Shown here piece by piece: positions 1,009-17,003 of a stretch of DNA of 17,383 nt. The notes under the pieces were generated by a model. That model saw nothing but the letters and a program-made list of their open reading frames with translations. It ran no database searches and was not told the DNA's origin. The position numbers were made by a program, and so were the translations under genes. Each line of letters starts with the position of its first letter. Within the stretch, counting starts at the first letter, position 1. The stretch spans positions 1 through 17,383 of the forward strand of contig JAHEEB010000008.1 in the NCBI GenBank assembly GCA_024640925.1, read 5' to 3'. The DNA comes from Bacteroidota bacterium. GTDB taxonomy: Bacteria; Bacteroidota; Bacteroidia; Bacteroidales; UBA10428.

Positions 1009-1014
1009 AAAGGT

Positions 1015-1029
1015 AACTGTATAGGTACA
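1015..1029 (+). promoter_or_regulatory. Candidate LytTR operator before the regulator gene
   Basis: AACTGTATAGGTACA lies between the kinase and regulator genes. It matches 14 of 15 bases of the sequence at 1910-1924, just before the tolC-like gene. A near-identical motif upstream of both transcription units suggests a shared binding site, most simply for the LytTR regulator encoded at 1054-1815. No binding data are available. Confidence 0.4.
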
Positions 1030-1053
1030 TCTGACAAAACATATTTTAATCAA

Positions 1054-1815
1054 ATGAAAATTGTAATTATAGAGGATGAAAAGCTTACTGCAGATGACCT
1101 GGAGGAAATTATCACAAACCTGTTGAAAGATGCATATGTAGTAAGAAAATTATATTCTGTTAAGGAAGCCATTGCCTGGTTTAGAAAAAACGAACACCCC
1201 GACCTTATATTTAGCGATATACAGCTGGGTGATGGTTTATGCTTTGATATTTTTAAAAGCCAGGCGATTTCCACTCCTGTCATATTCTGCACAGCTTACG
1301 ACGAATATGCTCTAAATGCTTTTAAAACAAATGGTATCGATTATATTTTAAAACCATTTGATGAGCAAACCATTTCAACGGCTTTGTTAAAATACAACGA
1401 GCTGAAAAGAAGATTTTCCGAAAATTCATTACGAATCGAAAATATTTTTAAGCTTTTTGAAGACCGGATGAATCAGAAAAAAGGTTCTGTTTTGGTTTAC
1501 CACAAGGATAAAATATTTCCTTTACGAATGAATGATATTGCTCTTTTTTATATTGAATATGAGATAACTCACATCATTACCTTTGAACAAAAAAATTATA
1601 CTATAAACAAAACTCTCGAAGAACTTGAGAAAATTACGGGTTCTGATTTTTACCGAGCGAACAGGCAATATCTTATAAACAGAAAAGCAATTAAAGAAGC
1701 TTCGCAATATTTCGCCCGCAAGTTATCTGTAAGCCTTACAATTTCATTTAAAGAAACAATCACTGTAAATAAAGTTAAAGTTCCGGATTTTTTGAACTGG
1801 CTCTCTGAAAGTTAG
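1054..1815 (+). CDS. LytTR-family response regulator
   Basis: Two-domain response regulator of 253 residues, the usual size for the LytR/AlgR class. The receiver domain (about 1-120) has the acidic pocket E7/D8, phosphoacceptor Asp55 (FSDIQL), Thr80 and Lys100 (KPF), so all the conserved phosphorelay residues are present. A linker of about 30 residues leads to a LytTR DNA-binding domain (about 148-250) with the typical FYRANRQYLINRKAI segment. It probably receives phosphate from the kinase just upstream and controls the adjacent efflux operon. Related 15-base motifs before this gene and before the tolC-like gene suggest autoregulation plus control of the pump. The start is the ATG at 1054, which gives a complete receiver domain. 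The family call is certain; the target operon is inferred from position and motif. Confidence 0.93.
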   Translation: MKIVIIEDEKLTADDLEEIITNLLKDAYVVRKLYSVKEAIAWFRKNEHPDLIFSDIQLGDGLCFDIFKSQAISTPVIFCTAYDEYALNAFKTNGIDYILKPFDEQTISTALLKYNELKRRFSENSLRIENIFKLFEDRMNQKKGSVLVYHKDKIFPLRMNDIALFYIEYEITHIITFEQKNYTINKTLEELEKITGSDFYRANRQYLINRKAIKEASQYFARKLSVSLTISFKETITVNKVKVPDFLNWLSES

Positions 1816-1870
1816 TTAATACAAAGGATTTTCACCCTGCGATTTGTCCATTTCGGATTCGAGTATCTTC

Positions 1871-1924
1871 ATACAGTTATGAATAACCTTCAACTTTGTT
1901 GTATCAATAAACTGTATAAGTACA
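1871..1924 (+). promoter_or_regulatory. Candidate LytTR operator/promoter region of the efflux operon
   Basis: The 115-base gap before the tolC-like gene holds ATACAGTT (1871-1878) and its exact inverse AACTGTAT (1910-1917), 31 bases apart. The right half extends to AACTGTATAAGTACA (1910-1924), nearly identical to 1015-1029. Read on the minus strand, ACAGTTTAT fits the known LytTR half-site pattern [TA][AC][CA]GTTN[AG][TG]; the plus-strand half ACAGTTATG misses at one position. The right half ends only six bases before the ATG, which would suit a repressor or an activator site overlapping the leader. Confidence 0.45.
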
Positions 1925-1930
1925 AGTAAA

Positions 1931-3256
1931 ATGACAACAAAATTGATCGCAGTTATCCTTGTAACTTTTGGAATGTTGCAAGTCTCAGCACAGGATACAA
2001 CGTTTTACCTATCGTTAAAAGAATCTTGTCGGTTGGGTATTAATAAAAATGTGAATACTCTGAATGCTGAACTTGAAAAACAGAAAGCAAACTATGAATT
2101 AAAGGTGGCCAAAAGCAAACTGTATCCGCAACTTGAGGCATATAGCACATTCAGTTACTACTATGCAATTCCAAAAATGGTCATTCCGGGTGAAATATTC
2201 GGACAAACCGGAATGATAGCTGTTGAGATAGGGACAAAATACGACTGGGCGAGCGGCTTTAAAGCATCACAAGTGCTATACAACCAAAGTTACTTTACAT
2301 CACTTAAGGTGGCACAACGAATGGAATCGATAAGTGGACTAACCCTTCAACAAAAAAAGGAAGAAATAATTTATCAGGTCTCACAAATATATTATTTGTG
2401 TCAGGCAACAAGCTATCAAGCTAATCAGTTAAAAACAACCCTGAAGAATACGGATAGTTTGCTCGTAATAGCAAGACTCCAAAGTGAAAACGGAATTATT
2501 CGTAAAGTTGATTATTCGAGGGTTTCGGTGAACAAAGCTAACCTGCAAACCCAGATTGACAACCTCGATCAGTTATACAATCAGCAGCTTGGTATGCTGA
2601 AATATCTTATTGGAATGGATATTACTGTTAAAATAGAATTATCTGATTCTTTATCTTTTTTTTCAACAGAAACGGCAACTCTACCTGATTTTAACAAAAG
2701 GGTTGAATTGCAAATCATAGATAATCAATTAGAATCTACTTCACTTGCACGCAGAATGAACCAACAATCGTACCTGCCGACTTTAACTGGTTTTGGTCAG
2801 TATTATTATGAAGGGCAGCGCAATGAGTTCGATTTTTTTGAAGGCAACGATAAATTTTATCAGGTTGGCTTAATTGGATTGAGTTTGAACATTCCCATTT
2901 TCGATGGTTTTGAAAAGCATTGCAAAACACAGCAAAAAGATATTGAATTACAACAGTTACAAAACACCCGAAAAAGCACATCTGATTTTTTATCCAAAGA
3001 ATTCGCAGATGCTTTAAGGCAATACGAGAACAGTCAAAATGCTTTGTTGCGCCAGAGAGAAAATATCAAACTGGCCGAAGAAACTTACTCAATAAGTTTA
3101 GAAGGATATAGTCAACAAACGGTACCGCTCTCCGATTTGCTAATGTCGGAGAGCAGCCTGATAGAGGCGCGACTTTCGTACTACAATGCCCTGCTTCAGT
3201 TAAAGAATGCCGAACTGGATGTTAAAAAAGCCAAAGGTGAATTACTCAAACAGTAA
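1931..3256 (+). CDS. TolC-family outer membrane efflux protein
   Basis: Outer membrane channel of a tripartite efflux pump, 441 residues, the normal length for TolC/OprM-like proteins of Bacteroidota. A signal peptide (1-20) has a hydrophobic core and a likely signal peptidase I site after VSA. The mature chain consists of two related halves rich in Leu/Gln/Asn coiled helices (about 30-230 and 240-440), as expected for the alpha-barrel with OEP repeats. The stretch LSLNIPIFDGFEKHCKTQQK is the typical strand and turn leading into the second helical hairpin. There is no lipobox cysteine after the signal, unlike NodT-type members. It is the first gene of a three-gene operon, followed after 22 bases by the fusion protein. 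The substrate of the pump cannot be read from the sequence. Confidence 0.92.
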   Translation: MTTKLIAVILVTFGMLQVSAQDTTFYLSLKESCRLGINKNVNTLNAELEKQKANYELKVAKSKLYPQLEAYSTFSYYYAIPKMVIPGEIFGQTGMIAVEIGTKYDWASGFKASQVLYNQSYFTSLKVAQRMESISGLTLQQKKEEIIYQVSQIYYLCQATSYQANQLKTTLKNTDSLLVIARLQSENGIIRKVDYSRVSVNKANLQTQIDNLDQLYNQQLGMLKYLIGMDITVKIELSDSLSFFSTETATLPDFNKRVELQIIDNQLESTSLARRMNQQSYLPTLTGFGQYYYEGQRNEFDFFEGNDKFYQVGLIGLSLNIPIFDGFEKHCKTQQKDIELQQLQNTRKSTSDFLSKEFADALRQYENSQNALLRQRENIKLAEETYSISLEGYSQQTVPLSDLLMSESSLIEARLSYYNALLQLKNAELDVKKAKGELLKQ

Positions 3257-3278
3257 GAAACAATTAAAAACAGCAGAT

Positions 3279-4340
3279 ATGAAGTCTAAAAGAATTATTA
3301 CCACGCTGATCATTGCTTTTATAGCAATAATGATTGTGTTGAGACTCGTTGCAAATAAGCAAGGATTCGAAGAACAACTCAAAACGATTTCGGAATTTAA
3401 TATAATCGTACCGGTTGACGTTGATACTGCCAAATACAAACAACAAACAAGTGATTTTTCGGTATATGGGTCTTTTCAGCCCTTTCAGGAAATTTCAGTA
3501 ACATCGGAAACCCAGGGTAAAATTGTTTCGGTTACAGCTGAAGTTGGTGATAAAGTTAATGCTGGCAAGATTCTGGCTGCTGTTGACGACGAACTTTTAA
3601 AATCTCAATTCGATTTGGCAAAATTCGACCTTGAGAGAGCGGAAAAAGATATGCAACGTTTCGAACTTCTTTCAAAAAGAGATGCAGCTACAGTGCAACA
3701 GTATGAGTCGGCAAAACAAGCATTTATCTACGCGAAATCAGCTTATTCTGCAGCCAGTATTCAGTATGAAAATGCTTTTATTAAGGCTCCTTTTAATGGT
3801 ATAATCACTAAAAGATATATCGAAAATGGCAGTTACTTGTTGCCAGGTGCTCCGGTTTTTGATTTGGTAGAAATTAATAAAGTTAAGTTTGTGACCAGGC
3901 TTACCAGTGATGAAGTTGAAAATGTAAAGGAAGGTCAACCTGTTGATATCAGTGTTGATGCCTATCCTGGAATAATTTTTAAAGGCACAATAAACACTAT
4001 TGTTGTGAAAGCTGACCTTTCCAGATGTTATGAGGTAGGAGTGTTAGTAATGAATCGTTCCGATAAATTTCTAAAACCGGGCATGTCGGGTAAAGGATTA
4101 TTTGCAGAACACTCCGACGAGAAAGTTCTTGCAATTCCTCGCAGAGCTGTTACAGGGAGCATTAAAAATCCTGAAGTATATATAGTTAAGGGCGATTCTG
4201 TTATTCGAAAAGGCATTAAAGCAGTCCCTTTAGATGATAAATATGTAGAGGTCCGCGAAGGCCTGAAAGCTGGAGATGTCGTAGTGGTATCGGGACAGAT
4301 AAACCTTGTAAATGGATCTAAAATTACATTAAACGATTAA
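3279..4340 (+). CDS. RND efflux membrane-fusion (periplasmic adaptor) protein
   Basis: HlyD/AcrA-type adaptor that bridges the inner membrane pump and the outer membrane channel. The chosen ATG at 3279 gives 353 residues beginning with an N-terminal membrane anchor (about 5-24). The frame continues upstream to 3207, but that would overlap the tolC-like gene by 50 bases and bury the anchor, so it was rejected. After the anchor come a barrel-sandwich/lipoyl half (GKIVSVTAEVGDKVNAGKIL), a helical hairpin (about 110-170), the second lipoyl half (APFNGIITKRYIENGSYLLPGAP), and a beta-barrel and membrane-proximal domain ending near KAGDVVVVSGQ. The gene ends six bases before the RND gene, so translation is probably coupled. 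Confidence 0.92.
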   Translation: MKSKRIITTLIIAFIAIMIVLRLVANKQGFEEQLKTISEFNIIVPVDVDTAKYKQQTSDFSVYGSFQPFQEISVTSETQGKIVSVTAEVGDKVNAGKILAAVDDELLKSQFDLAKFDLERAEKDMQRFELLSKRDAATVQQYESAKQAFIYAKSAYSAASIQYENAFIKAPFNGIITKRYIENGSYLLPGAPVFDLVEINKVKFVTRLTSDEVENVKEGQPVDISVDAYPGIIFKGTINTIVVKADLSRCYEVGVLVMNRSDKFLKPGMSGKGLFAEHSDEKVLAIPRRAVTGSIKNPEVYIVKGDSVIRKGIKAVPLDDKYVEVREGLKAGDVVVVSGQINLVNGSKITLND

Positions 4341-4346
4341 AAACAA

Positions 4347-7300
4347 ATGGCCATTAATATTGCAAAAATAGCGGTCAACAGGCCCACTCTTGTTGTAGTG
4401 GTTTTTACAGTGCTTATCTTTTTAGGGATAGCCAGTTATAAAAGCCTCAACTATGAGTTAGTACCAAGTTTTTCTTCACCTGTTTTTACTATTGTAACTG
4501 TTTATCCTGGCGCATCGCCGGCTGAGGTAGAGAATGGCGTAACAAAGAAACTGGAAGATGTAATTACATCTGTAGAAAATCTGGACAATATCCGTTCTTT
4601 TTCTCAGGAAGGAGTTTCAATACTGGTAGTATCATTAAAACTATCGGCTAATATAGATAATGGTATCCAGGATGCACAGCGCAGAGTGAGTGCGGCAAAA
4701 AGTTTGTTGCCTTCGGGTGTCATGGAACCTATGGTTACTAAAATTTCGATGAGTGACCTTCCAATAATGAACATTGGTGTAACGTCTGCAATTTCTCCTA
4801 CTGAGTTTTATGATTTGCTGAAGTATCGCATCCAACCTGATTTAGCCAAAATTAAGGGTGTTGGTGAAGTATCTCTGGTAGGTGGAAATGAACGTGAAAT
4901 ACGTGTGAATCTGGATGCTGAAAAGATGCAGGCATATAATCTTTCATCGTTACAGGTTTTGCAAGCCATACAATCGTCGAACCTGGAATTTCCAACAGGG
5001 AAAATTAAAAACGACGAATCGCAAATGGTTATCCGGCTTTCTGCAAAGTTTAAAACCATTGACGATATAAAAAATGTAATTATAGCCGTTGACGAGGATG
5101 GTTCAAAGGTGAAATTGAAAAATATAGCAGAAGTATTAGATACAGAAAAAGAACCTGCCATGCTTGCCCGGGTGAATGGCAAGAATTCAGTAGGGTTAAG
5201 TCTAAAACGGCAATCGGGCTCTAATACAGTTGAAGTTTGTCATCTAATAAACAATGAACTTGCAAAACTCGAAAATACCTATAAAAACTACAATCTGAAA
5301 TTTGAAGTTCCGTTTGATTCCTCGGTTTTCACCGAAAAAGCTGCTAGTTCAGTTATGCACGATTTGATGTATGCCATTATATTAGTGTCGTTGGTAATGC
5401 TTGTATTTCTTCACGGTTTGCGCAATGCGTTTATTGTGATGATAGCTATCCCAATCTCATTGATAATATCATTTTTGGGCATGTATTTACTTGGTTACAC
5501 GCTTAATATTATGACACTTGTAGCCATGTCGCTGGTTATTGGAATATTGGTGGACGATGCCATTGTGGTGTTGGAAAATATTTATCGTCATATAGAAATG
5601 GGGAAAGACAAAGTACAGGCTACGCTTGATGGCAGGTCTGAAGTTGGTTTCACAGCAGTGGCAATTACATTGGTAGATGTTGTTGTATTTTTACCTATAG
5701 GCTTGTCAAAGAGTGTAATCTCGCCCCTTATTGGCCCTTTTGCATTGGTTATTGTTGTAACAACATTGTTGAGTTTATTGGTAGCATTTACTGTTGTCCC
5801 GCTCTTAACTTCGCGTTTGGCCAAACATCAACATTTACGCAAAGAAGTACTTTCAGGCCGTTTCTTCCTGTGGTTTGAAAAACAAGTCGATAGCTTTGCT
5901 GCAGTTCTTCATAAAATACTTCTTAAGGCATTTCGTCATAAAATTGTCACCTTTATTGTAGTTACCATTCTCTTTATTGGTTCAATAGCTCTTATTCCCG
6001 CCGGTTTTGTTGGTTCCGAAGTTTTTGGTATGGGCGATGCAGGTGAATTTATGATTCAGGTTGAACTTCCGAAAGATGCTACCTTAAAAGAAACCAACCT
6101 GAAAGTATTGGAAATTGAACAACTTTTATTTACAAAACCTGAAATAAAGTCGGTTTTTACAACCGTTGGTTCTGCCAGTGCAGGAATGCTTAGCGGTGGA
6201 ACACAAAGTAATACATACAAAGCCGAAATCAATGTAAAAATGGTAGATAAAGAATTTCGCAATGTATCGGCACAAACATATTCAAATCGTATAAAAAACG
6301 AACTAAATTCAAAAATTACAGGCGTCAAAGTCAGAACAGTTTTCTTAAATCCGTTTATGGGAGGAACGGATGACAGTCCTATTCAGGTTATCGTAAAATC
6401 ATCGAATCCCGATTCGTTGAGCAAATATGGAAAACTCATAAAAAGCCTGATAGAAAAAACACCTGGAGTAAACGATGTCAATTCAACGCTTGAAGATGGC
6501 AGTAATGAAATTATTGTTGACATTGATAAAGAAAAGATGGCCGAGTTTGGTTTATCACTGGCATCTGTTGGCTCTGCGATGTCAACAGCTTTTAGTGGAA
6601 ATATTGATGCAAAATTTATGGATGGCTCGTACGAGTATGATATTGATGTGGTTTACGACGAATTTGATCGCCGTAGCATAAGGGATGTTTCAAACCTGGT
6701 ATTTATGAATTCTTTAGGACTACCGATAAAACTATCGCAGTTTGCAACAATTTACTATGGAATGGGGAGTTCAAAGCTCGAACGACACGACCGTATTTCT
6801 TGTATATCAATTGAGTCGCAGGTATTGGGCAGAGCTTCGGGCGATGTTGGCGAAGATATTAAAAATCAAATTGCAGCAATATCAATGCCTCCAGAGGTTT
6901 CCATTAGTTACGACAGCGATATGAAATTTCAGGAAGATGCTTTCGGAAGTCTTGGTTTTGCATTGCTAACGGCCATATTTTTTGTGTATTTGATTATGGT
7001 TGCTTTATACGAATCCTATTTGTATCCATTGGTAGTGCTGTTTTCGATACCGCTTGCTATTGTAGGGGCAATATTAGCGCTTGCTCTGACGAAAACAAAC
7101 TTAAGTATATTTACTATTATGGGTATTATTATGTTAGTTGGATTAGTGGCTAAAAATGCAATTTTAGTAGTTGATTTCACGAACCATCTTAAAAAAGAAG
7201 GTTATCGCACCATTCGTGCATTACTTATGGCAACACGCATAAGGTTAAGGCCTGTTTTAATGACCACAATGTCTATGATTATTGGTCTACTGCCCATAGC

Positions 7301-7478
7301 GCTTGCTTCCGGTGCGGCATCGGAATGGAAAAACGGAATTGCATGGGTGCTAATTGGCGGACTTACAAGTTCTATGCTGTTAACCCTGGTTGTTGTACCA
7401 GTCGTATATTCTATACTTGAAATGGCAAAAATTAATGTTCAGAAATGGTCCCTCAGGTTGAAACGAGTACCTGTGTAA
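4347..7478 (+). CDS. RND efflux pump inner membrane subunit (HAE1/AcrB type)
   Basis: Proton-driven resistance-nodulation-division transporter, 1043 residues, full family length. TM1 lies near 14-32 and is followed by the first periplasmic porter loop with the conserved VYPGASPAEVE stretch (52-62). TM2-TM6 cover about 335-480, then come a second porter loop and TM8-TM12 at the C-terminus. The proton relay is intact: Asp403-Asp404 in TM4 (GILVDDAIVVLENIYRH) and a Lys near 936 in TM10 (GLVAKNAILVVDF). It is the last gene of the tolC-like/adaptor/pump operon and likely acts as a homotrimer with both. The gene order and the upstream LytS/LytTR pair suggest a signal-induced export system. The exported compound is not predictable; multidrug export is only a default guess for this class. 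Confidence 0.95.
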   Translation: MAINIAKIAVNRPTLVVVVFTVLIFLGIASYKSLNYELVPSFSSPVFTIVTVYPGASPAEVENGVTKKLEDVITSVENLDNIRSFSQEGVSILVVSLKLSANIDNGIQDAQRRVSAAKSLLPSGVMEPMVTKISMSDLPIMNIGVTSAISPTEFYDLLKYRIQPDLAKIKGVGEVSLVGGNEREIRVNLDAEKMQAYNLSSLQVLQAIQSSNLEFPTGKIKNDESQMVIRLSAKFKTIDDIKNVIIAVDEDGSKVKLKNIAEVLDTEKEPAMLARVNGKNSVGLSLKRQSGSNTVEVCHLINNELAKLENTYKNYNLKFEVPFDSSVFTEKAASSVMHDLMYAIILVSLVMLVFLHGLRNAFIVMIAIPISLIISFLGMYLLGYTLNIMTLVAMSLVIGILVDDAIVVLENIYRHIEMGKDKVQATLDGRSEVGFTAVAITLVDVVVFLPIGLSKSVISPLIGPFALVIVVTTLLSLLVAFTVVPLLTSRLAKHQHLRKEVLSGRFFLWFEKQVDSFAAVLHKILLKAFRHKIVTFIVVTILFIGSIALIPAGFVGSEVFGMGDAGEFMIQVELPKDATLKETNLKVLEIEQLLFTKPEIKSVFTTVGSASAGMLSGGTQSNTYKAEINVKMVDKEFRNVSAQTYSNRIKNELNSKITGVKVRTVFLNPFMGGTDDSPIQVIVKSSNPDSLSKYGKLIKSLIEKTPGVNDVNSTLEDGSNEIIVDIDKEKMAEFGLSLASVGSAMSTAFSGNIDAKFMDGSYEYDIDVVYDEFDRRSIRDVSNLVFMNSLGLPIKLSQFATIYYGMGSSKLERHDRISCISIESQVLGRASGDVGEDIKNQIAAISMPPEVSISYDSDMKFQEDAFGSLGFALLTAIFFVYLIMVALYESYLYPLVVLFSIPLAIVGAILALALTKTNLSIFTIMGIIMLVGLVAKNAILVVDFTNHLKKEGYRTIRALLMATRIRLRPVLMTTMSMIIGLLPIALASGAASEWKNGIAWVLIGGLTSSMLLTLVVVPVVYSILEMAKINVQKWSLRLKRVPV

Positions 7479-9348: not shown

Positions 9349-9374
9349 CTGATTTGTGGGTGGTTTTACCGTGT

Positions 9375-9391
9375 GTTATGTGGCGTTTTCC
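9375..9391 (-). repeat. Terminal half-site of the cassette array (3' arm of the 9397-9930 gene)
   Basis: TTTTACCGTGTGTTATG and the following TGGCGTTTT on the plus strand align with TTATACCACATGTATGTG and CTGGCGTTTTT in the attC-like site at 13124-13255. Only the arm next to the gene is present. The partner arm is missing, and the broken GyrI-like fragment begins instead. This marks the left end of the array. Confidence 0.5.
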
Positions 9392-9396
9392 TTATG

Positions 9397-9930
9397 TTAT
9401 GCACTTGTTCCCCAATTAAATCTTATAAAATAATCCTGAGTCTCAAATAAATAATCTTCATCGTTCCATTCCGATTTCAAATGATAAGTCTTTAAAGAGT
9501 TTTGATTAACCCAGTCCGATTTTTTTATTGGTTCTAAAGTAATTTGATTATCCCATTCATTGTTTTTATAAATTCTTTGTTCATTATCAGAGATAAATCT
9601 GGTTATACAATCTTTTAATGTAATTTTTTCTGTTAACTCGAATTTGGCATTTCCGTAATGTCCAATTAGGGACTCAACACATTTATTATAAATCTCAATT
9701 TTTGCCGTATCCTTAAAGTAAAATTCTCCGAACCGTACAAATTCTTGTAACACTGAGATTATCAAAGCCTTTTCAACACTTTCTACATTAGCTTTATTCA
9801 TGATAATAAAAGTCGCACTTGACTCCCAACTCGGTTTGTCAAAATGAAATGAAGTCAACTCGGTCAAGAATGTATTCTCAAATACCTCTAAAACGATTTC
9901 ATAATTCTTTATATATTCAATTACGTTCAT
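9397..9930 (-). CDS. Array gene 1: orphan protein of unknown function
   Basis: A 177-residue soluble protein beginning MNVIEYIKNYEIVLEVFENTF and ending DYFIRFNWGTSA, with no signal peptide or membrane segment. I recognise no named domain. The alternating helix/strand pattern and the aromatic C-terminal tail resemble small Bacteroidota orphans often found as single accessory genes; no function is implied. It starts at ATG 9930, 19 bases from the end of repeat A. Its stop at 9397 is followed directly by the array's terminal half-site. The gene is bracketed by an 11-base inverted repeat: AAAATGCCACA at 9939-9949 and TGTGGCGTTTT at 9379-9389, 10 of 11 paired. It appears to be the last cassette of the array. 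Confidence 0.7.
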   Translation of the reverse strand: MNVIEYIKNYEIVLEVFENTFLTELTSFHFDKPSWESSATFIIMNKANVESVEKALIISVLQEFVRFGEFYFKDTAKIEIYNKCVESLIGHYGNAKFELTEKITLKDCITRFISDNEQRIYKNNEWDNQITLEPIKKSDWVNQNSLKTYHLKSEWNDEDYLFETQDYFIRFNWGTSA

Positions 9931-9949
9931 TGTCTGTTAAAATGCCACA

Positions 9950-10133
9950 CAATCGAGTAGGGAAAGATACGAAATATTTCGCATCTCCTCCCTCTTACAC
10001 CACCGTACGTAACGACCAGGCTTTAGTTCAACCGGAAGTTCATGTTTGCCTTGCGGTGAGCTCCTTTTAGTCGGTTAGCTGCGCTGAGCCCTTCGGGGTT
10101 GGGCTGTTAGCCCACATGAACTTCTATTTATTA
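9950..10133 (-). repeat. Structured cassette repeat A (group II intron end-like)
   Basis: A 184-base copy read on the minus strand, from AATAAATAG to CTCGATTG. Its stem GAAGTTCATGT/ACATGAACTTC (10114-10124 with 10035-10045) encloses two tandem sub-units. A domain V-like stretch follows (GTTGAAC ... GTACGGTGGTGTAAGAGGG), then a 22-base hairpin (9965-9986) resembling domain VI, and the end CCTACTCGATTG. Three other copies lie in the window. It sits between array genes 2 and 1. Confidence 0.8.
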
Positions 10134-10146
10134 GGCACGGGCATTT

Positions 10147-10938
10147 TTATCTTTCCCAAATCTTCCTAATTAATTTTATCGGTTTTATATCTTTCCATTC
10201 GATTTTTTTATCGGAAACTTTCAAGTCATTATCATTTATTTCTGTCGCTTCTGATTCATTTTTCCTACGTGCCATTTCCTTTTCCCAAATCTCGTTTTCA
10301 TTTGGTGGTTGAATTAATTCCGAACCACCTTTATGCGGAAACTGAACATAATTTTCAGGGGGACTTGGTAAATTATTCTCACATTCTATCGAACATACAT
10401 TGACTAAAAGAGGTAAAATATCAGTCCCGACACATAATGAAATCCAAAATTGGTTGGCCTCACTATAATCCATTACCTTTTTACAGACACTACACATTAC
10501 TTTATCCCCAAAATATCGAATTGGATTATTTTTCAATTGAGGGAAACCCATTCGATACTTATAATTCCCATAAAGTGCCCTAGTGCTTACTCGACTTTTC
10601 TTTAATTTTTTACAATTAGTGATTTCGTAAGGGAACCAATGTAAATCATAAGAAGTATATGGATCAAAATATTCAAGAGCTTCCATTTCCCCAATTTCTG
10701 GTGGAATCCGTTTTAATTTACTACCATATAACCACAATTTCTTGACCTTTTTCAATTTTGATATTGATTCGGGTAAAGTAAAAATCTGAGAAAATAATTC
10801 TGGACCCAATTCTTCAAGAGGGGCAAATTCATCATTTCCTTGTTCCGCAATTTTTTCAATATAATCGCAGAGTTTAATCCAAGCCTGAGAATTTCTGTCT
10901 TGAATATTATTTTCTATCCTTGAAATCATTTTATTCAT
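10147..10938 (-). CDS. Array gene 2: leucine-rich-repeat protein with a CxxC...CxxxC knuckle
   Basis: A 263-residue soluble protein. After a short helical N-terminus, residues about 40-115 form two to three leucine-rich repeats (LPESISKLKKVKKLWLYGSKLKRIPPEIGEMEALEYF). A conserved-looking WFPYEITNCKKLKKSRVSTRALYGNYKYR segment follows. A probable zinc site then comes from Cys149/Cys152 (CSVC) and Cys182/Cys186 (CSIEC). The C-terminal ~60 residues are charged and probably disordered. Proteins of this layout (short LRR plus zinc knuckle) occur in several phyla without known function; a protein-interaction role is a reasonable inference. The start is ATG 10938; an in-frame ATG three codons later is possible. 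It lies between repeats B and A in the cassette array, with its stop eight bases before the conserved 3' arm ends. Confidence 0.8.
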   Translation of the reverse strand: MNKMISRIENNIQDRNSQAWIKLCDYIEKIAEQGNDEFAPLEELGPELFSQIFTLPESISKLKKVKKLWLYGSKLKRIPPEIGEMEALEYFDPYTSYDLHWFPYEITNCKKLKKSRVSTRALYGNYKYRMGFPQLKNNPIRYFGDKVMCSVCKKVMDYSEANQFWISLCVGTDILPLLVNVCSIECENNLPSPPENYVQFPHKGGSELIQPPNENEIWEKEMARRKNESEATEINDNDLKVSDKKIEWKDIKPIKLIRKIWER

Positions 10939-10980
10939 AAAGCTCTATCATAGTTTCGAAGCCGTTTTTATGCTTGTTGA

Positions 10981-11136
10981 CAATCGAGTATGGAAAGATT
11001 CGAAATATTTCGAATCTCTACCCTCTCACACCACCCGTAAGTACCGGCCGGGTTTTAGTTCAACCGGGAGTTCATGTTTACCTTACGGTGAGCCCTTCGG
11101 GGTTGGGCTGTTAGCCCACATGAACTCCTATTTATT
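10981..11136 (-). repeat. Structured cassette repeat B (group II intron end-like)
   Basis: The shortest clean copy, about 156 bases, read on the minus strand. Stem GGAGTTCATGT/ACATGAACTCC (11118-11128 with 11067-11077) encloses one sub-unit with the hairpins GGGCT-AAC-AGCCC and ACC-GTAA-GGT (GNRA loop, 11080-11089). The domain V-like part GGTACTTACGGGTGGTGTGA follows. The domain VI-like hairpin at 10996-11017 is a perfect 22-base palindrome here. The end is ATACTCGATTG. Its first bases supply the stop codon of array gene 3. Confidence 0.8.
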
Positions 11137-11701
11137 GGCGGTAGTTTATATTTATTTCCGATTCATTAATAAGTTGAAAATTTTCAATTATATCAAATCC
11201 CAATGCCCCTTTTCTTAATTGCAATTTTATACTTTTTGCATTTTCGACAAGCTCAGAATTTGATGAATAAAAAACAAGTTCTTTTTCTAAATCTGCGTAA
11301 TCAAATATTACAGTAGGTTGCCGTTTACTTGTAATTTTATATCCAGGTAGAGAACTTTTCGACTTAATTATTAATTCATGTTCTGTTATATCTTTATCAG
11401 CGAGATAATAGTTTGTAGCTAGGAATAAATAACTTAAAATGAATCCCCATGATAAAAAGCTTTGGATTAGTGGGAAAAAATTTCCTTTCAATTTATAAGT
11501 TGATTTGTATTTTTTTCTAATCAAAGCAAAGGTTACAGAACCTACAACTACTACAATAATGAACAAAATGCCAATTTTAATAAAAGTCTTTCTGTAAAGA
11601 AAAATCTCTAAATACATTAAAATCAGTCCAAGGAAAAGAGTCACAGTATAAAATCCTTTCCAAAAATCATTATTATCTATTTGTCTACCTAATAGCTTCA
11701 T
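11132..11701 (-). CDS. Array gene 3: small membrane protein of unknown function
   Basis: A 189-residue integral membrane protein with three clear hydrophobic helices (about 15-36, 41-62 and 75-100). A soluble tail of about 85 residues follows (ELIIKSKSSLPGYKITSKRQPTVIFDYADLEKELVFYSS...). I do not recognise the family. The tail looks like a small beta-rich domain. The tail's side of the membrane is not obvious. Its last codons (NINYRQ) run through the cassette's 3' arm, and its TAA stop is made by the first bases of repeat B, so the gene ends inside the repeat. The cassette is bracketed by an 11-base inverted repeat (11710-11720 and 11137-11147; 9 of 11 paired). The start is ATG 11701, close behind the end of repeat C. 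Confidence 0.75.
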   Translation of the reverse strand: MKLLGRQIDNNDFWKGFYTVTLFLGLILMYLEIFLYRKTFIKIGILFIIVVVVGSVTFALIRKKYKSTYKLKGNFFPLIQSFLSWGFILSYLFLATNYYLADKDITEHELIIKSKSSLPGYKITSKRQPTVIFDYADLEKELVFYSSNSELVENAKSIKLQLRKGALGFDIIENFQLINESEININYRQ

Positions 11702-11719
11702 GTTTTTTTAAATAACCGC

Positions 11720-11868
11720 CAATCTAGTAGAGAAAGATACAAAATATTTCGCAACTCCGCCCTCTCACACCACCCTAGGTACCAGCCGGATTTTAGTTCA
11801 ACCGGGAGTTCATGTTTAGCTGCGCTGAGCCCTTTTAGTCGGTTAGCCCACATGAACTCCTATTTATT
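11720..11868 (-). repeat. Structured cassette repeat C (group II intron end-like)
   Basis: A copy of about 149 bases on the minus strand. The stem GGAGTTCATGT/ACATGAACTCC (11850-11860 with 11805-11815) encloses a single sub-unit of a different type from that in repeat B (plus-strand TTAGCTGCGCTGAGCCCTTT then TAGTCGG). The domain V-like part GGTACCTAGGGTGGTGTGAGAGGG and the domain VI-like hairpin (11735-11756) carry more changes than the other copies, and the end reads CTACTAGATTG. Confidence 0.78.
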
Positions 11869-11879
11869 GGTGCCAGTTT

Positions 11880-13046
11880 TTATTTGTCAAATTCTTGTTT
11901 CACTTTTTCAATCAATTTACTATCGCCACTATTTTCAGCCACTATTTTCGCTAATTCTTTTAATTTTTCGGCTTTATCAGACATCGATTTTGCTATATAA
12001 TCCCTGTAAACTATCTCAAAACAATTTATGTAGTTTTGGTTTTGATTATTTACATTTTTCTGATTATAATCATTAATGACTTGCAATTTTAGGTAATCTA
12101 ACAAAAATTTATTTTCTATCAATGATTTGTTAAGCTCCACATCAAGCGATGGTGTCTTTGAAAATTTATATGTTAATCCTGATACAGTCATATGATTGAC
12201 ATAAGGCTGGTAATTTTTTTGAGAAACCGTCATGCCAATATATAAAGGCCTATCCAAATTGTAATTTGCAAGTATGTGGTTAAGTACTTTTGGCCAATTA
12301 ACCTGATATCCATCCGATAAGTCTATATCAATTGGTTTTACACCTAAAATTTCAAAAACTTGTTCTCTATAACTATCCAGTAAAAGAAAATCAATATTTA
12401 TAACCCAAACATCCTCTCGTACTCCTTTTGCATCCTGCAACATCCAAGCTGCATAAGAATCATTGTCGTGTTCAGTAAATATGATACTTTTGGGTTCAAC
12501 TGACATTAAAACATTATATGCGTAAGATATAAGTCCTGTTGATAATTTATTTTCTTTAAACCATTCCTTATTTACTTTTTTTCTCAAATCGAAATCTAAA
12601 ATACTTACCGAATATGTTATCATATTTGCTTTTATTTCCTCAAAATTGGGATTTATCTCATAAGCTTTTAATAAATACTCTCCTTTTGAGGGATCTATTC
12701 CTCTTCTGGCATAGGCAACATAATTATAAGTAAAAGTATTAGGTATATTCTCTTCCATTAGTTTAATAATCTCATCACTGCTTTTGAGAAATTTAGATTC
12801 CTTAACGAAATCTTCTGACCAATTTGCAGTGCCTTGAGCATTGCGACATGCTTTAAAATAATTATACCAATTATCTTCAGAATGTATATTTTTTTCAATT
12901 TCTTTCCACCATAATTCTGATTGTTCTACATAATATGAATGTGGTTTTGACTCAAGGGCAAATGATTTTTGCTTTTCTGGTGTTTGTCCAACTATGGTTG
13001 CTGAAACAATCAATAATGAAGTTGCTAATATTAGATATAGTCTCAT
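11880..13046 (-). CDS. Array gene 4: secreted protein resembling the C-terminal domain of DUF2723 glycosyltransferases
   Basis: With the ATG at 13046 the product is 388 residues and begins with a signal peptide (MRLYLILATSLLIVSATIVG). An ATG at 13076 is a possible longer start. The open frame extends further up to a TTG at 13160, but that would lie inside the attC-like inverted repeat and was rejected. Residues about 188-220 read IIFTEHDNDSYAAWMLQDAK followed by GVREDVWVINIDFL. This matches the motif of the soluble C-terminal part of DUF2723/TMEM260-type protein O-mannosyltransferases (FTxGDNDTYPLWYLQEVEGVRxDVxVxNLSLL), and a later LYIGMTVSQKN stretch also fits. The multi-membrane catalytic domain is absent, so this is a stand-alone periplasmic relative, not an active transferase by itself. 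It could bind glycan or protein partners; that is inference. Confidence 0.72.
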   Translation of the reverse strand: MRLYLILATSLLIVSATIVGQTPEKQKSFALESKPHSYYVEQSELWWKEIEKNIHSEDNWYNYFKACRNAQGTANWSEDFVKESKFLKSSDEIIKLMEENIPNTFTYNYVAYARRGIDPSKGEYLLKAYEINPNFEEIKANMITYSVSILDFDLRKKVNKEWFKENKLSTGLISYAYNVLMSVEPKSIIFTEHDNDSYAAWMLQDAKGVREDVWVINIDFLLLDSYREQVFEILGVKPIDIDLSDGYQVNWPKVLNHILANYNLDRPLYIGMTVSQKNYQPYVNHMTVSGLTYKFSKTPSLDVELNKSLIENKFLLDYLKLQVINDYNQKNVNNQNQNYINCFEIVYRDYIAKSMSDKAEKLKELAKIVAENSGDSKLIEKVKQEFDK

Positions 13047-13123
13047 AATTAATTTATTAAAGTTGTTTTTGTACATAGAATACACTTTCATCAAGAAAAC
13101 GTTCAAAAATAGGGTAGTAAAAT

Positions 13124-13255
13124 TGGTATGAAAAGTTGCCGATTGCGGGGCGATTTCCAATCAAGCCGTTAAGAACTTTATGCGGGTTACAGCCTTTGAA
13201 TAACCTACTACAATGGCAATTTTTTATACCACATGTATGTGCTGGCGTTTTTATT
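13124..13255 (-). repeat. attC-like inverted-repeat site between array genes 5 and 4
   Basis: TGGTATGAAAAGTTGCC (13124-13140) and GGCAATTTTTTATACCA (13215-13231) pair at 15 of 17 positions, spanning 108 bases, and both mismatches are G.T pairs on the plus strand. That strand is the bottom strand relative to the genes, the one recombined in integrons. The loop holds GGCGATTTC (13149-13157). The outer arm GTGCTGGCGTTTTTATT (13239-13255) sits at the 3' end of the GNAT gene. Overall length and layout resemble large attC sites, but a canonical GTTRRRY core is not evident. Confidence 0.5.
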
Positions 13256-13281
13256 ATTCATTTTATATTCTTTCAAGCAAA

Positions 13282-13737
13282 TCATAACTTGTACTCCATC
13301 TTGTAAAGGTCATACCCTTTAGCCCAATAGTCCTTAGCTTGCTCTATTAATCGAAATCCATTCTTTTCATAAAATCTATAGACTAGCTGTGTTGTCCTAA
13401 CAATGATCTGTTTAATATTATTGTCACCTTTCAGTTTATTTATTCTATAATTTAAAATCATGCTGCCGTATCCTTGTCTTTGATAATTTGGATGAAAAAA
13501 GTCCCAACTAATATATCCAATAGTATGATTTTCTTTATAATTAATACCTCCACAACCAATAATCTCATTGTTAAAGACAAGAACATAATATTCTTCTATT
13601 TCATTGTCCAAATAATAAATCAAATCCTTTTCTTCTTCTGGCGCAAAGTATTTAGGCGTATTAGTCCTCAATAAATCTAAGACTTTTATTTTGTCCTTGT
13701 CGCTATATTTTCTAATAATCAAATCTTCTTTAATCAT
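13282..13737 (-). CDS. Array gene 5: GNAT-family N-acetyltransferase
   Basis: A 151-residue acetyl-CoA-dependent acetyltransferase, the usual size for a single GNAT domain. Motif A is clear: ISWDFFHPNYQRQGYGSMIL with the acetyl-CoA pyrophosphate loop Q86-R-Q-G-Y-G91. Motif B follows (VYRFYEKNGFRLIEQ, about 119-133), including the Tyr that often acts as general acid. The N-terminus (IRKYSDKDKIKVLDLLR) is the typical first strand and helix. The substrate is not predictable; amino group donors among small molecules, peptides or ribosomal proteins are all possible. GNATs are among the most common passengers of integron cassettes, which agrees with its position between two attC-like inverted repeats. 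It starts at ATG 13737. Confidence 0.92.
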   Translation of the reverse strand: MIKEDLIIRKYSDKDKIKVLDLLRTNTPKYFAPEEEKDLIYYLDNEIEEYYVLVFNNEIIGCGGINYKENHTIGYISWDFFHPNYQRQGYGSMILNYRINKLKGDNNIKQIIVRTTQLVYRFYEKNGFRLIEQAKDYWAKGYDLYKMEYKL

Positions 13738-13773
13738 TTTATCCTGTCAATATAGTTACTGTCTGTTTTTTTT

Positions 13774-13927
13774 ACGCTTGCACCTATCGTTCGATGGTAT
13801 GATGTCGTGCGGGACTACGAGGCGATTTCTTATCAGTTTACGCTGACCTTTTTTACGAGCCACAAACCTTCGAAACCCGCTTAAACCCGCATGCACTATA
13901 CCATGTGTTGTGTTGTCGTGCATTATT
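13774..13927 (-). repeat. attC-like inverted-repeat site between array genes 6 and 5
   Basis: ATGGTATGATGTCGTGCGGG (13794-13813) pairs imperfectly with CCCGCATGCACTATACCAT (13886-13904) across 111 bases. Outer arms TGCAC (13779-13783) and GTGCA (13918-13922) continue the symmetry. The internal GGCGATTTC at 13821-13829 and the right-hand arm match the site at 13124-13255, although the stem sequences differ. Conserved shape with variable sequence is the hallmark of attC families. Confidence 0.5.
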
Positions 13928-13943
13928 TTTTGTCAATATTTTT

Positions 13944-14951
13944 CTATTCAAATTGTTCCATAATCTGCAAATTCACATTTTCATTCTTTTTAATATTTTC
14001 CATTGATGAAAAATGCATCTGTGGAATTTTATCATATTGACGTTTTGCCATAATCTTTTTTGTAAATGTGCGAATTGTCTCTATCGCTTCATAATTCGAT
14101 GCATCTCCACAAACATCCAATCCAACCACTCTTTTAGTTTTTCCAATATATGCAAGTGCATTAAGCAGCTCTTCAACGTGCATCTTTCCGGTAAACCCCT
14201 GATATGCTGAAAAGCTTTCCTTTTCGTCTAAGACATCTTTATCAATTGTAACATAAACTGCCTCTGTTGGAATATTTGAAATAACATTCTCTATAACCGA
14301 CTGAACACCTCCATTATCACTCATATTCTTCCATCTGGCATCGGTAGTTAAAATTCCCGGATTGAAATCCACACATTTTAATGAACCATTTAATCTACCA
14401 ATCAATGTCGATTGGCTCATATAATTTGGATAGGTCTCTACACGTTCCTGAAAAAGAAGATTAAATGAATGGGTCATCTTTCCTTTTGGTAAAGGAAGAT
14501 AATTTCTAACTTTAAAATCCCCGTCTATGCCAAACTGTACAAGTTTTTTGACAAAGGGTAGTCGTAAAGCCGGATTAATCCATGATCCGTAGTTGAAGTA
14601 GTCAGCTCCATGCCACCATTTACCCAAAGACATAAGATTCACAAATTCTTCACGCCAATAATCAGAGTGATTATCGAAGTGTATAATCGTAAAAGGCTCT
14701 TTTATTAAACTAATTCCAATATATGCCAGATGGTGAAAGTCTCCAGAACCATAGAATATAGCTTTAGGATTTTCTGTCCGACTGGCTTTAGTTACCAAGT
14801 CAATTAAATTGTTCATTTTGTCCTTATGACACCAGAAGCGAATATCACTAGTTTGTTTGCGAAGTGGAATTATTACTGCATTATATTGCGATATAAGTCT
14901 CTCCTGGGAGGTAACTCCGCCATCCACATCTAGAATGATTGTCTCAAACAT
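13944..14951 (-). CDS. Array gene 6: arginase/ureohydrolase-fold protein
   Basis: A 335-residue protein of the arginase/agmatinase superfamily, whose members hydrolyse guanidino or related C-N bonds with a binuclear Mn centre. All metal-ligand motifs can be placed: GSGDFHH (His73/His74, for the usual GGDHS), FDNHSD (Asp93, His95, Asp97, for DAHxD) and TIDKDVLD (Asp237, Asp239, for SxDxDxxDP), followed by GLDVCGD. The first motif is unusual, and the segment between the second and third (about 100-230) is not typical for arginases, so the substrate is probably not arginine or agmatine. Related enzymes include formiminoglutamase and polyamine or histone deacetylase-like members. It starts at ATG 14951. 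It lies in the cassette array, with a half attC-like site and repeat D upstream and a complete attC-like site downstream. Confidence 0.82.
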   Translation of the reverse strand: MFETIILDVDGGVTSQERLISQYNAVIIPLRKQTSDIRFWCHKDKMNNLIDLVTKASRTENPKAIFYGSGDFHHLAYIGISLIKEPFTIIHFDNHSDYWREEFVNLMSLGKWWHGADYFNYGSWINPALRLPFVKKLVQFGIDGDFKVRNYLPLPKGKMTHSFNLLFQERVETYPNYMSQSTLIGRLNGSLKCVDFNPGILTTDARWKNMSDNGGVQSVIENVISNIPTEAVYVTIDKDVLDEKESFSAYQGFTGKMHVEELLNALAYIGKTKRVVGLDVCGDASNYEAIETIRTFTKKIMAKRQYDKIPQMHFSSMENIKKNENVNLQIMEQFE

Positions 14952-15012
14952 ACCTTGATTTCATTGAAATTGTTTTTTGGTAGAAATATTTAGTATTAAA
15001 ACATAGATTTCA

Positions 15013-15042
15013 TTTTGGTAGAGGCGATTTTTGCATGCCGAA
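15013..15042 (-). repeat. Half attC-like site abutting repeat D
   Basis: The plus-strand sequence TTGGTAGAGGCGATTTTTGC just before repeat D keeps two landmarks of the complete sites: a TGGTA core and GGCGATTT (15023-15030). The distance between them is shortened and the second arm is missing. Repeat D begins where the rest of the site should be. This suggests that the repeat entered, or replaced part of, an attC-like site. Confidence 0.4.
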
Positions 15043-15464
15043 CAATCGAGTAGGGAAAGATACGAAATATTTCGCATCTCCTCCCTTTCACACCAAAGTA
15101 TGAACTGGCAGGTATGGGGTTCGTTAAACATTGCTATATCTGACGAATTGTTCCTTTAAACCCATTATGCTTATGGGTATAGAATAATATTGCCTTTTTT
15201 GAACGAAAATAATGTGATTTTATACTGACTGTTTTTAATAGCAAAACTTGAAAAAACATGCTTTATCTACCTCTTTGTTTTTTAATTTACCTCTCCGGTT
15301 TTAGCGTGTTTGCCCTTTATCCCTGAAGAGAAGTCCATAGCCGCCAGGCCGGGTTTAGTTCAACCGGGAGTTCATGTTTAGCTGCCGGTGAGCTCCTTTT
15401 AGTCGGTTAGCTGCGCTGAGCCCTTCGGGGTTGGGCTGTTAGCCCACATGAACTTCTATTTATT
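15043..15464 (-). repeat. Structured cassette repeat D, interrupted by ~230 bases
   Basis: Both ends match the other copies. The right part (15346-15464) has the stem at 15446-15456/15367-15377 and two tandem sub-units, as in repeat A. The left part (15043-15112) has the domain VI-like hairpin (15058-15079) and the CTCGATTG end. Between them, about 15113-15345 is unrelated AT-rich sequence with no coding frame; the only structure seen is a small hairpin ACCCAT/ATGGGT (15160-15178). The interruption falls within the domain V-like part. TATGG and CCATA lie near its ends, with CAGG on both sides, so a small insertion is possible. Confidence 0.7.
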
Positions 15465-15494
15465 AGCTGCTGGCAATCTTTCGAGAATTCATTT

Positions 15495-17003
15495 TTATTC
15501 ACCATTTGGATATCTATATAATTCCAAAATATTATGATTATCGAATCCTTTATATTTAGCATTTATTCTTTCAATCCATTTAGGAATACTTTGTTTCTCA
15601 AAAATTAAGTTGTAGTTTTTAATCTTTTCTGAACATTCAATATTGCCCTTATCAATTTTTCGGATTACCAGTAGATTTACAGCATCTTGTACAAATAAAG
15701 AATCATTTAACTCACATAAATTGTTAATTCTATGGTCTGTCAAGGAATCTTCAAAATAAAATTTAGCAGGTAAACCGTGCCAAGGATTATATGGATTTGC
15801 CCATGAACAAAATACTAAATTGATTTTTTCTCTACCATAATTATCATGAATATATTTGGTGATCTCCATTCTACCTATACCGGCAGATTTTTGTCCCATT
15901 GCAATTATTCCAATTGAATTTACTAGAACAAATATTGATATAAGCATAAAATTGAAGCTTTTAATCCAAAACCGATTTGTAATTAATCTTTCTATTACTA
16001 AGTAACCTTCAATAAGCATAAGAGGAAATAAATAAACTAATGGAAAAAGAAAACGTTCCTCTTTGTGTGAAATAATAGAATGGCCAACAATAAATGGTAT
16101 AGTAACCCATAAAATGTAATTTTTCGGATTAGAAAACAATATAAAAATGAACGATAAAATAATAGGTATACCAATAAAATAACTGGGATAACTTAATAGT
16201 TTAAGAATATAAAAATACCAAGGAGAAGTACCAAATCCTGAAGCTGCTCCTTCAACAATATTTTTATAGAAATAGTTCCATGGAGTAGAAACAAACTCAC
16301 CATAAAACCATGAATCTAATAATAAGCCAAGAATGATAATTGCAATAAATGAGGCGCATATCTTTAATAAATATTTCAATTTTGAATGATTAATAAATAT
16401 TAACCATAATCCAAAACCAACTATTGCGAAAGCAATTTGGAATCGAAATAGGAAACTTATACCAAATAAAAGTCCCATTTTAAAGGGTTTTGTTTTGTCA
16501 TTTGAGTCATTGATAAAAAGAGCCAATGATAACAAAAACAATAGTCCAGACCATGTTTCAGAAGAAAATCGAACACTAATGATAGGAATAAACCATAAAA
16601 AGAAAGAAAGTAAATAGTATGCTATTTCTAAAGTTTTATTTTTGATTAAGCCCTTTGTATTTTGAATAAAATAGGAAATAACAATTATCGCAAATAATGC
16701 GGAAAGTAGTCGAAGTAAAAAAGCCTGATTATATGGATCATTAACATTTATAATATCAAATGTTTTTAAAAAAACGAAACAAATAATGGGCTGTAAGGCT
16801 GGTCTAATTTGAGCTTTGAATTCCCATGCTAATTCATCAGGGGAGTGAGTTCCAAGCTTCAAACCAGCAAATTCAACTATTTGATAATGTTCATCAGCAT
16901 GATAAAAACCATGAGAATTAAAGGCTGTGGTAATATAAACCACAGCCGCAAGAGCAACAATTATTAAAAATATATCTTTCTTTGAAAAAACAGAAAACTT
17001 CAT
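15495..17003 (-). CDS. GT22-type (PIG-B/ALG9-like) membrane mannosyltransferase
   Basis: A 502-residue multi-pass membrane glycosyltransferase of the GT-C fold with about ten hydrophobic helices. The first luminal/periplasmic loop after TM1 carries the family signature: YHADEHYQIVEFAGLKLG (His35-Ala-Asp37-Glu38) and, after a spacer, LAWEFKAQIRPALQP (Trp60-Glu61 and Arg67). This corresponds to the (H/P)DE(x)(Y/W)Q and TWEW...RS motifs of Dol-P-mannose-dependent GT22 enzymes. It therefore probably transfers a sugar from a polyprenyl-phosphate donor at the outer face of the inner membrane. A final soluble tail (about 380-502) lacks helices. The ATG lies one base after the stop of the T9SS protein gene, so the two are co-translated or coupled. 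Its 3' end carries the same arm as the array genes and then repeat D. The donor and acceptor are unknown. Confidence 0.85.
   Translation of the reverse strand: MKFSVFSKKDIFLIIVALAAVVYITTAFNSHGFYHADEHYQIVEFAGLKLGTHSPDELAWEFKAQIRPALQPIICFVFLKTFDIINVNDPYNQAFLLRLLSALFAIIVISYFIQNTKGLIKNKTLEIAYYLLSFFLWFIPIISVRFSSETWSGLLFLLSLALFINDSNDKTKPFKMGLLFGISFLFRFQIAFAIVGFGLWLIFINHSKLKYLLKICASFIAIIILGLLLDSWFYGEFVSTPWNYFYKNIVEGAASGFGTSPWYFYILKLLSYPSYFIGIPIILSFIFILFSNPKNYILWVTIPFIVGHSIISHKEERFLFPLVYLFPLMLIEGYLVIERLITNRFWIKSFNFMLISIFVLVNSIGIIAMGQKSAGIGRMEITKYIHDNYGREKINLVFCSWANPYNPWHGLPAKFYFEDSLTDHRINNLCELNDSLFVQDAVNLLVIRKIDKGNIECSEKIKNYNLIFEKQSIPKWIERINAKYKGFDNHNILELYRYPNGE

Follow-up and report, generated by a model that had tools for sequence, protein, structure and literature searches.

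A gene-cassette array in a Bacteroidota genome that most likely belongs to an integron variant with an I2-less integrase

Cassette capture by the integron integrase IntI is reported to need an insertion, I2, that occurs in no other protein (PMC7790495), and the available part of a second study describes I2 as not fully conserved in an integron-like subgroup, yet essential for integron function (PMC8138268). Among the Bacteroidetes, an extract of the IntegronFinder 2.0 paper gives Salinibacter ruber as the only one with a complete integron, beside Chlorobi and Ignavibacteriae (PMC9024848), and an extract of a review lists Bacteroidota among the integron-bearing phyla (PMC8618304). Here we analyse a stretch of 17,383 nucleotides (the window) from a Bacteroidota bacterium (Bacteroidales, UBA10428; assembly GCA_024640925.1, contig JAHEEB010000008.1), in which seven genes form a head-to-tail block. 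We judge it probable that this block consists of integron-type gene cassettes and that the enzyme family concerned is an I2-less Bacteroidota tyrosine recombinase acting at an attI-like site; the window itself is most likely part of an integron variant of Bacteroidota whose integrase lacks I2. The window is one entire contig (C793) from a probably metagenome-assembled genome (5.67 Mb, 1131 contigs, 81.9% complete), and from position 9397 rightward to the window end all genes lie on the minus strand.

The initial annotation had described these seven genes (c1 to c7 below) as a cassette array whose members end in one shared 3' arm. Each gene does have a short arm at the place given, but the arms are not one shared sequence: only their pattern is common, and each arm tends to pair with the 5' arm at the other end of the cassette to which it belongs. 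Among 18 cassettes of this genome (in an arm list where a few long pairs are probably mis-joined) the score of a cassette's own 5'/3' arm pair was 16.1 against 10.7 for other pairs, and none of 20,000 permutations was as high, which bears out the cassette-array architecture. The window alone, with five testable cassettes, suggests the same, the own pairing being reached in 2 of 120 permutations, one of which is the true pairing. The arms of c1, c3 and c5 pair significantly when taken individually (p < 0.01, shuffling); those of c2 (p = 0.67) and c6 (p = 0.16) do not. These last two cassettes give some room to a chance likeness of AT-rich 3' ends, an explanation that is scarcely credible given 0 of 20,000 permutations in two independent sets (this one and the recombinase loci below). 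Arms that pair within their own cassette follow the logic by which R'' and R' make up the attC of a circular cassette; because of this complementarity each circle would carry a single attC site. The features of the array, by position in the window, are the following.

9375-9389, minus strand: 3' arm (R'') of c1, pairing with its own 5' arm (shuffle p = 0.005); the adjoining outer site is degenerate
9397-9930, minus strand: cassette gene c1, an orphan of 177 amino acids
9939-9952, minus strand: 5' arm of c1, beginning exactly at the intron 3' end; A at position 10
9952-9992, minus strand: domain VI and 3' end of a group II intron, with 96% identity to the corresponding end of the full-length copy in contig C234
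10049-10132, minus strand: variable hairpin of an intron-type attC (family 1), one of 32 copies counted
10130-10148, minus strand: 3' arm of c2; own pairing not significant
10147-10938, minus strand: cassette gene c2, an orphan of 263 amino acids
10966-10983, minus strand: 5' arm of c2; A at position 10
10983-11136, minus strand: intron-type attC between c3 and c2, with the intron 3' end at 10983-11023
11132-11701, minus strand: cassette gene c3, an orphan of 189 amino acids
11134-11148, minus strand: 3' arm of c3, overlapping the end of the open reading frame (ORF); own pairing p = 0.004
11709-11722, minus strand: 5' arm of c3; A at position 10
11722-11868, minus strand: intron-type attC between c4 and c3, with the intron 3' end at 11722-11762
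11866-11881, minus strand: 3' arm of c4; 5' partner arm not identified
11880-13046, minus strand: cassette gene c4, an orphan of 388 amino acids
13117-13246, minus strand: plain attC-like site, degenerate, outside the training set of the covariance model (E = 1.5e-4 at 13113-13246)
13237-13252, minus strand: 3' arm of c5; own pairing p = 0.007
13282-13737, minus strand: cassette gene c5, a GNAT acetyltransferase (PF00583, E = 7e-13)
13774-13787, minus strand: 5' arm of c5
13780-13918, minus strand: plain attC-like site, 85% identical to positions 9234-9356 of contig C329
13907-13924, minus strand: 3' arm of c6; own pairing not significant
13944-14951, minus strand: cassette gene c6, an arginase-fold protein (PF00491, E = 5e-10)
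15028-15045, minus strand: 5' arm of c6; A at position 10
15045-15464, minus strand: intron-type attC between c7 and c6, with the intron 3' end at 15045-15085 and the hairpin at 15351-15464
15462-15478, minus strand: 3' arm of c7
15495-17003, minus strand: cassette gene c7, an Alg9-like mannosyltransferase (PF03901, E = 9e-36)

The 5' end of cassette c7 was not found inside the window. Of the six boundaries, four have the 3' end of a degenerate group II intron and two are plain attC-like sites, which agrees with the earlier statement that most sites are group II-like rather than plain attC. The intron ends were identified through their likeness to a full-length intron in another part of the genome, and Rfam matched no family in the window. 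Counting from the intron end, which marks the crossover, 23 of 27 5' arms in this genome have A at position 10, and 29 of 32 3' arms have C there. The TTR of the next cassette begins directly at the intron end in nearly all site copies, and the crossover of intron-type sites is A|TTR.

The window holds no integrase, as the initial annotation had said, and its suggestion that such an array might be moved by another recombinase has become the best-supported alternative, for arrays of this kind start directly behind an I2-less recombinase (the head recombinase) in relatives and other Bacteroidota. A recombinase alignment was scanned against one genome collection, and from the best 80 loci of 589 matched stretches we chose 32, to which six fetched relatives were added; 29 of these 38 loci have more than 1500 nucleotides downstream and were testable. 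In 21 of the 29 (relatives and named Bacteroidota) the 3' arm opens a full attC, as judged by eye, which places an attI-like site beside the recombinase: in these 21 loci a site of the form ATA...G|TTR lies 24-359 nucleotides (median 96) 3' of the recombinase stop codon. With every G|TTR within 400 nucleotides taken as a candidate junction, the best pairing with a downstream 3' arm scored 20.0 within the own locus versus 16.8 between loci, a value reached in 0 of 20,000 permutations (maximum 18.9). The score was at or above the 99th percentile of 7,330 background positions in 17 of the 21 kept heads and in none of seven others (28 heads were scored, L185 being left out), and 14 of the 21 first attC sites are 120-124 nucleotides long. 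A simple attC finder gave 46 sites in 12 of 15 downstream stretches of 20 kb (12 of the 15 stretches come from single-contig assemblies); five flanks of 10-11 kb on the upstream side contained none. Another 24 hits fell on the opposite strand and may represent the palindromes already counted.

The first cassettes of these 21 loci have the same mismatch as the arms of our genome. Arm positions 1-8 pair in 20 or 21 of them and positions 11-13 in 19, 21 and 19, whereas position 10 pairs in none (A opposite C in 20, A opposite G in one); the pairing partly reflects selection by score, and the mismatch does not. From 82 loci we kept, as further cassettes, 60 of 74 candidates (from 23 loci), the filter being that at least five of the first six arm positions pair. 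Position 10 pairs in one of these 60, the base opposite A being C in 43, G in 14, A in two and T in one, and positions 11-13, which lie outside the selection, pair in 46, 53 and 44. There are 42 different sequences at arm positions 4-8 among the 60 cassettes. All 46 cassettes seen in one orientation only have A at position 10; for the 14 seen on both strands the orientation with A was taken. (In alignment A6 the L206 row is probably misread at its start.) The control recombinase loci contain no cassettes with this signature, and 16 IntI loci gave none at the strict threshold; relaxing it yielded three entries, all from L283 and two of them the same cassette on opposite strands, and relaxing it again yielded 11, of which several are probably spurious. 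The common position-10 signature thus ties the integrase-less arrays of our genome to the recombinase-headed arrays of other genera.

The head recombinase matches the IntI model on either side of a missing stretch. Two catalytic motifs stand 64-70 residues apart in 37 of 51 heads (the motifs were unmatched in the other 14) and 106-107 residues apart in 11 of 16 rows labelled IntI, so that, where it can be measured, the I2 insert of about 41 residues is absent. In a tree from which three short rows were dropped, 15 of the 16 IntI-labelled rows form a separate clade; L277, assigned to IntI by hand, fell outside it. The heads usually have one to three N-terminal bbabba repeats, to which profile and Foldseek searches gave no named fold, and with a head as Foldseek query the top solved structure was Vibrio cholerae IntI (2a3v), nearly tied with XerA. 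Used as query, one Algoriphagus protein matched 116 of 395 sampled Bacteroidota genomes at E <= 1e-45 (arrays were checked in a part of the 116) and 7,991 of 8,000 scored database proteins at E <= 1e-50; the homologues are recorded as XerD, integrase or 'site-specific tyrosine recombinase/integron integrase'. Relatives of the head recombinase also occur in metagenome-assembled genomes labelled Bacillota (L228, again with an attI-like site), Undinarchaeota (L230) and Spirochaetota (L234), labels that may reflect binning errors. A subgroup formed by L193 (7760-8830), L229 and L235 has no array by the downstream test, and L193 has attC-model hits on its divergent side.

Could an ordinary integron account for the window, its I2-bearing IntI being lost, unassembled or elsewhere and the recombinase beside the relatives' arrays a mere neighbour? 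The intI search that the initial annotation had proposed gave nothing above the NCBIfam cut-off in our genome, an absence that means little because the genome is fragmentary, and IntI does exist nearby: it is intact in G006, a genome of the same genus (422 bits), and C-terminally broken in G029. But these are the only two among 60 relatives, and one of 395 Bacteroidia genomes has an IntI above cut-off, while matches to an attC covariance model (R1) occur in 34 of the 60 relatives. R1 was built from five plain sites of our genome, one of them the site at 13780-13918, whose match is therefore by construction; it gave no hit beside the three fetched IntI loci (L152-L154), though as a model of a single site family it could miss others. 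Among 59 relatives (our own genome left out, recombinase presence taken at E <= 1e-55), attC-model hits accompany the head recombinase in 20 of 23 genomes and occur in 13 of 36 without it (Fisher p = 1.4e-4), and show no association with IntI (one of two with, 32 of 57 without). At 14 fetched loci of relatives that have a non-IntI tyrosine recombinase (275-621 amino acids), the attC model matches the same stretch in seven; six of the seven remaining loci lie on contigs that stop shortly after the recombinase. Since arrays start at an attI-like site behind this other recombinase, we regard the ordinary integron as distinctly improbable. The bona fide IntI genes of L152 (636-1595, G006) and L153 (G029) have no detectable array; their upstream regions are similar by eye and may hold attI. 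Two recombinase pieces of our genome, on contigs C444 and C909, were considered as the array integrase and rejected: they lie beside an IS91-type transposase and match L187 at 56-58%, and L187 groups with L278, outside the heads, in a tree that does not contain the pieces themselves. The IS91-type element (PF14319, PF04986) with its tyrosine recombinase is probably split over these two contigs (L059 on C909, 1-1760; L040 on C444, 3-323), and the attC between c7 and c6 is interrupted, at positions 15097-15350 of the window, by sequence that by eye resembles the element's end, beside the transposase gene in C909.

Several observations weigh against an I2-less recombinase as the enzyme of these arrays, or against reading their sites as attC, in addition to the IntI of G006 and the pairing of c2 and c6. 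No head recombinase was found in our genome, and the simple attC finder detected none of the window's own sites. Eight of the 29 testable heads (L185, L206, L220, L227, L229, L235, L237 and L240) have no 3' arm opening an attC and showed no array by the downstream test, and 30 of 36 control loci of other recombinases gave a weak own-locus effect (255 of 20,000), probably due to base composition. The sequence profiles of the Protein Data Bank place heads nearer to XerA (237 and 232 bits) than to IntI (217); three of seven heads scanned reach the cut-off of 220 of the XerA-type family NF040815 (220.8, 226 and 243 bits) and none reaches that of IntI. Strict GTTRRRY crossovers occur in only six of the 60 further cassettes, G|TTR alone being general, and the finder required G|TTR. 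Bottom-strand folding energies of five plain sites were no better than those of shuffles (z from -1.56 to +1.56). Finally, the resemblance of the N-terminal repeats to HARP/XPB domains is below significance: for the HARP domain (PF07443) the best of nine proteins scored 21.2 bits against a gathering cut-off of 25, none of 23 was found at E <= 0.01, and Foldseek matched 4o66 at E = 0.27.

The likeness to XerA leads to another explanation, in which the same recombinase acts on double-stranded DNA as XerA does and the palindromic sites are paired half-sites, with no folded strand. This we consider unlikely, since the arms are cassette-specific and pair within the cassette, the G|TTR crossover motif stands on one side only, and the position-10 mismatch is conserved. 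The sequences themselves show the arm pairing and its mismatch, the attC anatomy, the attI-like site, the position behind the recombinase and the lack of I2; from them we infer that the head recombinase catalyses cassette exchange by way of a folded single strand, with its N-terminal repeats in the role of I2. A cassette would then be one gene whose 5' arm starts with TTR and whose 3' arm ends in AA(C/T); the two arms match each other as complements along about 13 positions, except for a conserved mismatch at position 10, mostly A opposite C. The enzyme acting on such arrays would most likely be a tyrosine recombinase without I2, usually with one to three N-terminal bbabba repeats, and it would capture cassettes at the attI-like site that closely follows its gene on the 3' side, with the cassettes pointing the same way as that gene. 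Given the published I2 requirement, the I2-less family should be a second solution to hairpin capture, a stage before I2, or a look-alike that works on double strands. A wider proposal, which we put forward tentatively and hold to be somewhat doubtful, is that Bacteroidota have a second, phylum-wide class of integron in which the I2-less recombinase captures cassettes via folded attC hairpins and HARP/XPB-like N-terminal repeats recognise structure instead of I2. If so, hairpin-based capture would have arisen twice, or before I2, and its origin could be tested by comparing the two enzyme families, for which Algoriphagus ornithinivorans DSM 15282 (L225) and Flavobacterium aciduliphilum DSM 25663 (L221) offer material. 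Should an I2-less recombinase indeed head arrays across Bacteroidota, these are missed by any search in which IntI is a requirement. In the open-licence PubMed Central literature (preprints excluded) we found no integron integrase that lacks I2 or bears HARP, nor a separate class of Bacteroidota integrons, which is weak evidence of novelty.

The intron-type sites recur across our genome. Family 1 has 32 copies in the fetched contigs (51 DNA matches), arranged in gene direction as 3' arm, AATAAATAGGAGTTCATG hairpin of variable length, further sequence and often a group II intron 3' end, of which there are 29 matches in the genome. The hairpin can be extended by tandem modules of about 28 nucleotides, as seen by eye at positions 6036-6260 of L047 (contig C140), and its length therefore differs between sites. 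Contig C234 carries a full-length group II intron (L055, 1490-3345; Rfam group-II-D1D4-3, E = 8e-27) with an encoded protein of 442 amino acids whose closest solved structure is the GsI-IIC reverse transcriptase, and contig C226 (L099) carries an internally deleted copy; by eye both lie directly behind attC-like hairpins and in the same direction as the cassettes, and the exon boundary has two possible placements, ..ACC|GTGCG.. or ..ACCGT|GCG... Plain, intron-free sites occur in the window and in contigs C329, C230, C140, C363 (cut by the contig end) and C412, and most end in G|TTR. Many attC sites in this species would be chimeras in which an attC-like hairpin is joined to a degenerate group II intron, the last intron base appearing to be the first T of the following cassette. 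With so many intron ends, one full-length and one deleted copy, one might see the repeats as group II intron debris, similar to miniature inverted-repeat transposable elements, behind unrelated genes of a static region. That is highly improbable, however, as plain intron-free attC-like sites stand in the same arrays, and the arm pairing and position-10 signature are common to intron-free arrays of other genera. The chimeras bear on an idea, raised in the available parts of two publications, that group II introns help to make cassettes (PMC7923331, PMC3053210).

Cassette exchange appears to be supported by a cassette common to two different platforms and by differences in platform content. L308 (G186) and L306 (G495) have a common first cassette of 974 nucleotides, 74% identical, that spans about the attI site to the R'' region, and no further match of at least 150 nucleotides was listed between the two downstream stretches; it is the only inter-array common cassette inspected closely at both ends, which limits its weight. 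A gene of contig C313 of our genome has a 66% match in the L231 array. Array content differs between related platforms, and four that were compared had short common stretches only; blastn for exchanged cassettes gave mostly recombinase genes and stretches of about 150 nucleotides resembling attC sites. Nor does the block look like one stable syntenic unit, the outcome that would have spoken against a cassette array: a 121-base query of the site family matched none of 59 relatives.

Pfam named only three of the seven cassette genes (the GNAT acetyltransferase, the arginase-fold protein and the mannosyltransferase), and PADLOC named none. The ORFs on array contigs of our genome (G000) include toxin-antitoxin, acetyltransferase and defence families. 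Alignment A5 took 78 of 92 same-orientation ORFs, some of which are not proven cassettes; among the 78 are five UPF0175 and five DUF3368 proteins (which we take to be of toxin-antitoxin type), four acetyltransferases, and one each of GmrSD, TIR, Fic and a beta-lactamase-family domain. Positions 1-7478 of the window encode a histidine kinase, a LytTR-domain response regulator and an efflux operon (an outer-membrane efflux protein and HlyD-type and AcrB-type proteins), and are unrelated to the array.

Among known systems, archaeal XerA and family NF040815 share the catalytic core of the head recombinases, and some public records of the heads carry the generic name of NF040815. Xer proteins differ in having no N-terminal repeats, and they are not known at the head of cassette arrays. 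The window is like a cluster of attC sites lacking integrases (CALIN) in having two plain and four intron-type attC-like sites with no integrase found in the contig or the fragmentary genome, but most of its sites are chimeras with an intron and show A|TT instead of G|TT. It resembles the group IIC-attC introns in that group II introns are inserted beside attC hairpins and the encoded protein is nearest to the GsI-IIC reverse transcriptase. According to the accessible part of PMC7923331, those introns are by definition inserted opposite to cassette transcription, and IIB introns occur in halophile integrons; the introns here have the same orientation as the cassettes (C234, C226), with degenerate copies in about 30 sites. 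With chromosomal integrons the arrays have in common head-to-tail cassettes in one direction, attC sites of the order R''-L''-L'-R', a G|TTR crossover and an attI-like site by a tyrosine recombinase. In contrast to chromosomal integrons, the attI-like site here lies 3' of the recombinase gene, and array and gene run in the same direction; attI placed 3' of the integrase gene with the array in the same direction is the layout of 'reverse' integrons. The strict GTTRRRY crossover is confined to the few cassettes mentioned above, the pairing between arms extends along about 13 positions and includes a fixed mismatch, as against 8-9 positions in the two or three IntI-type cassettes of L283, and the recombinase is without I2 and usually has N-terminal repeats.

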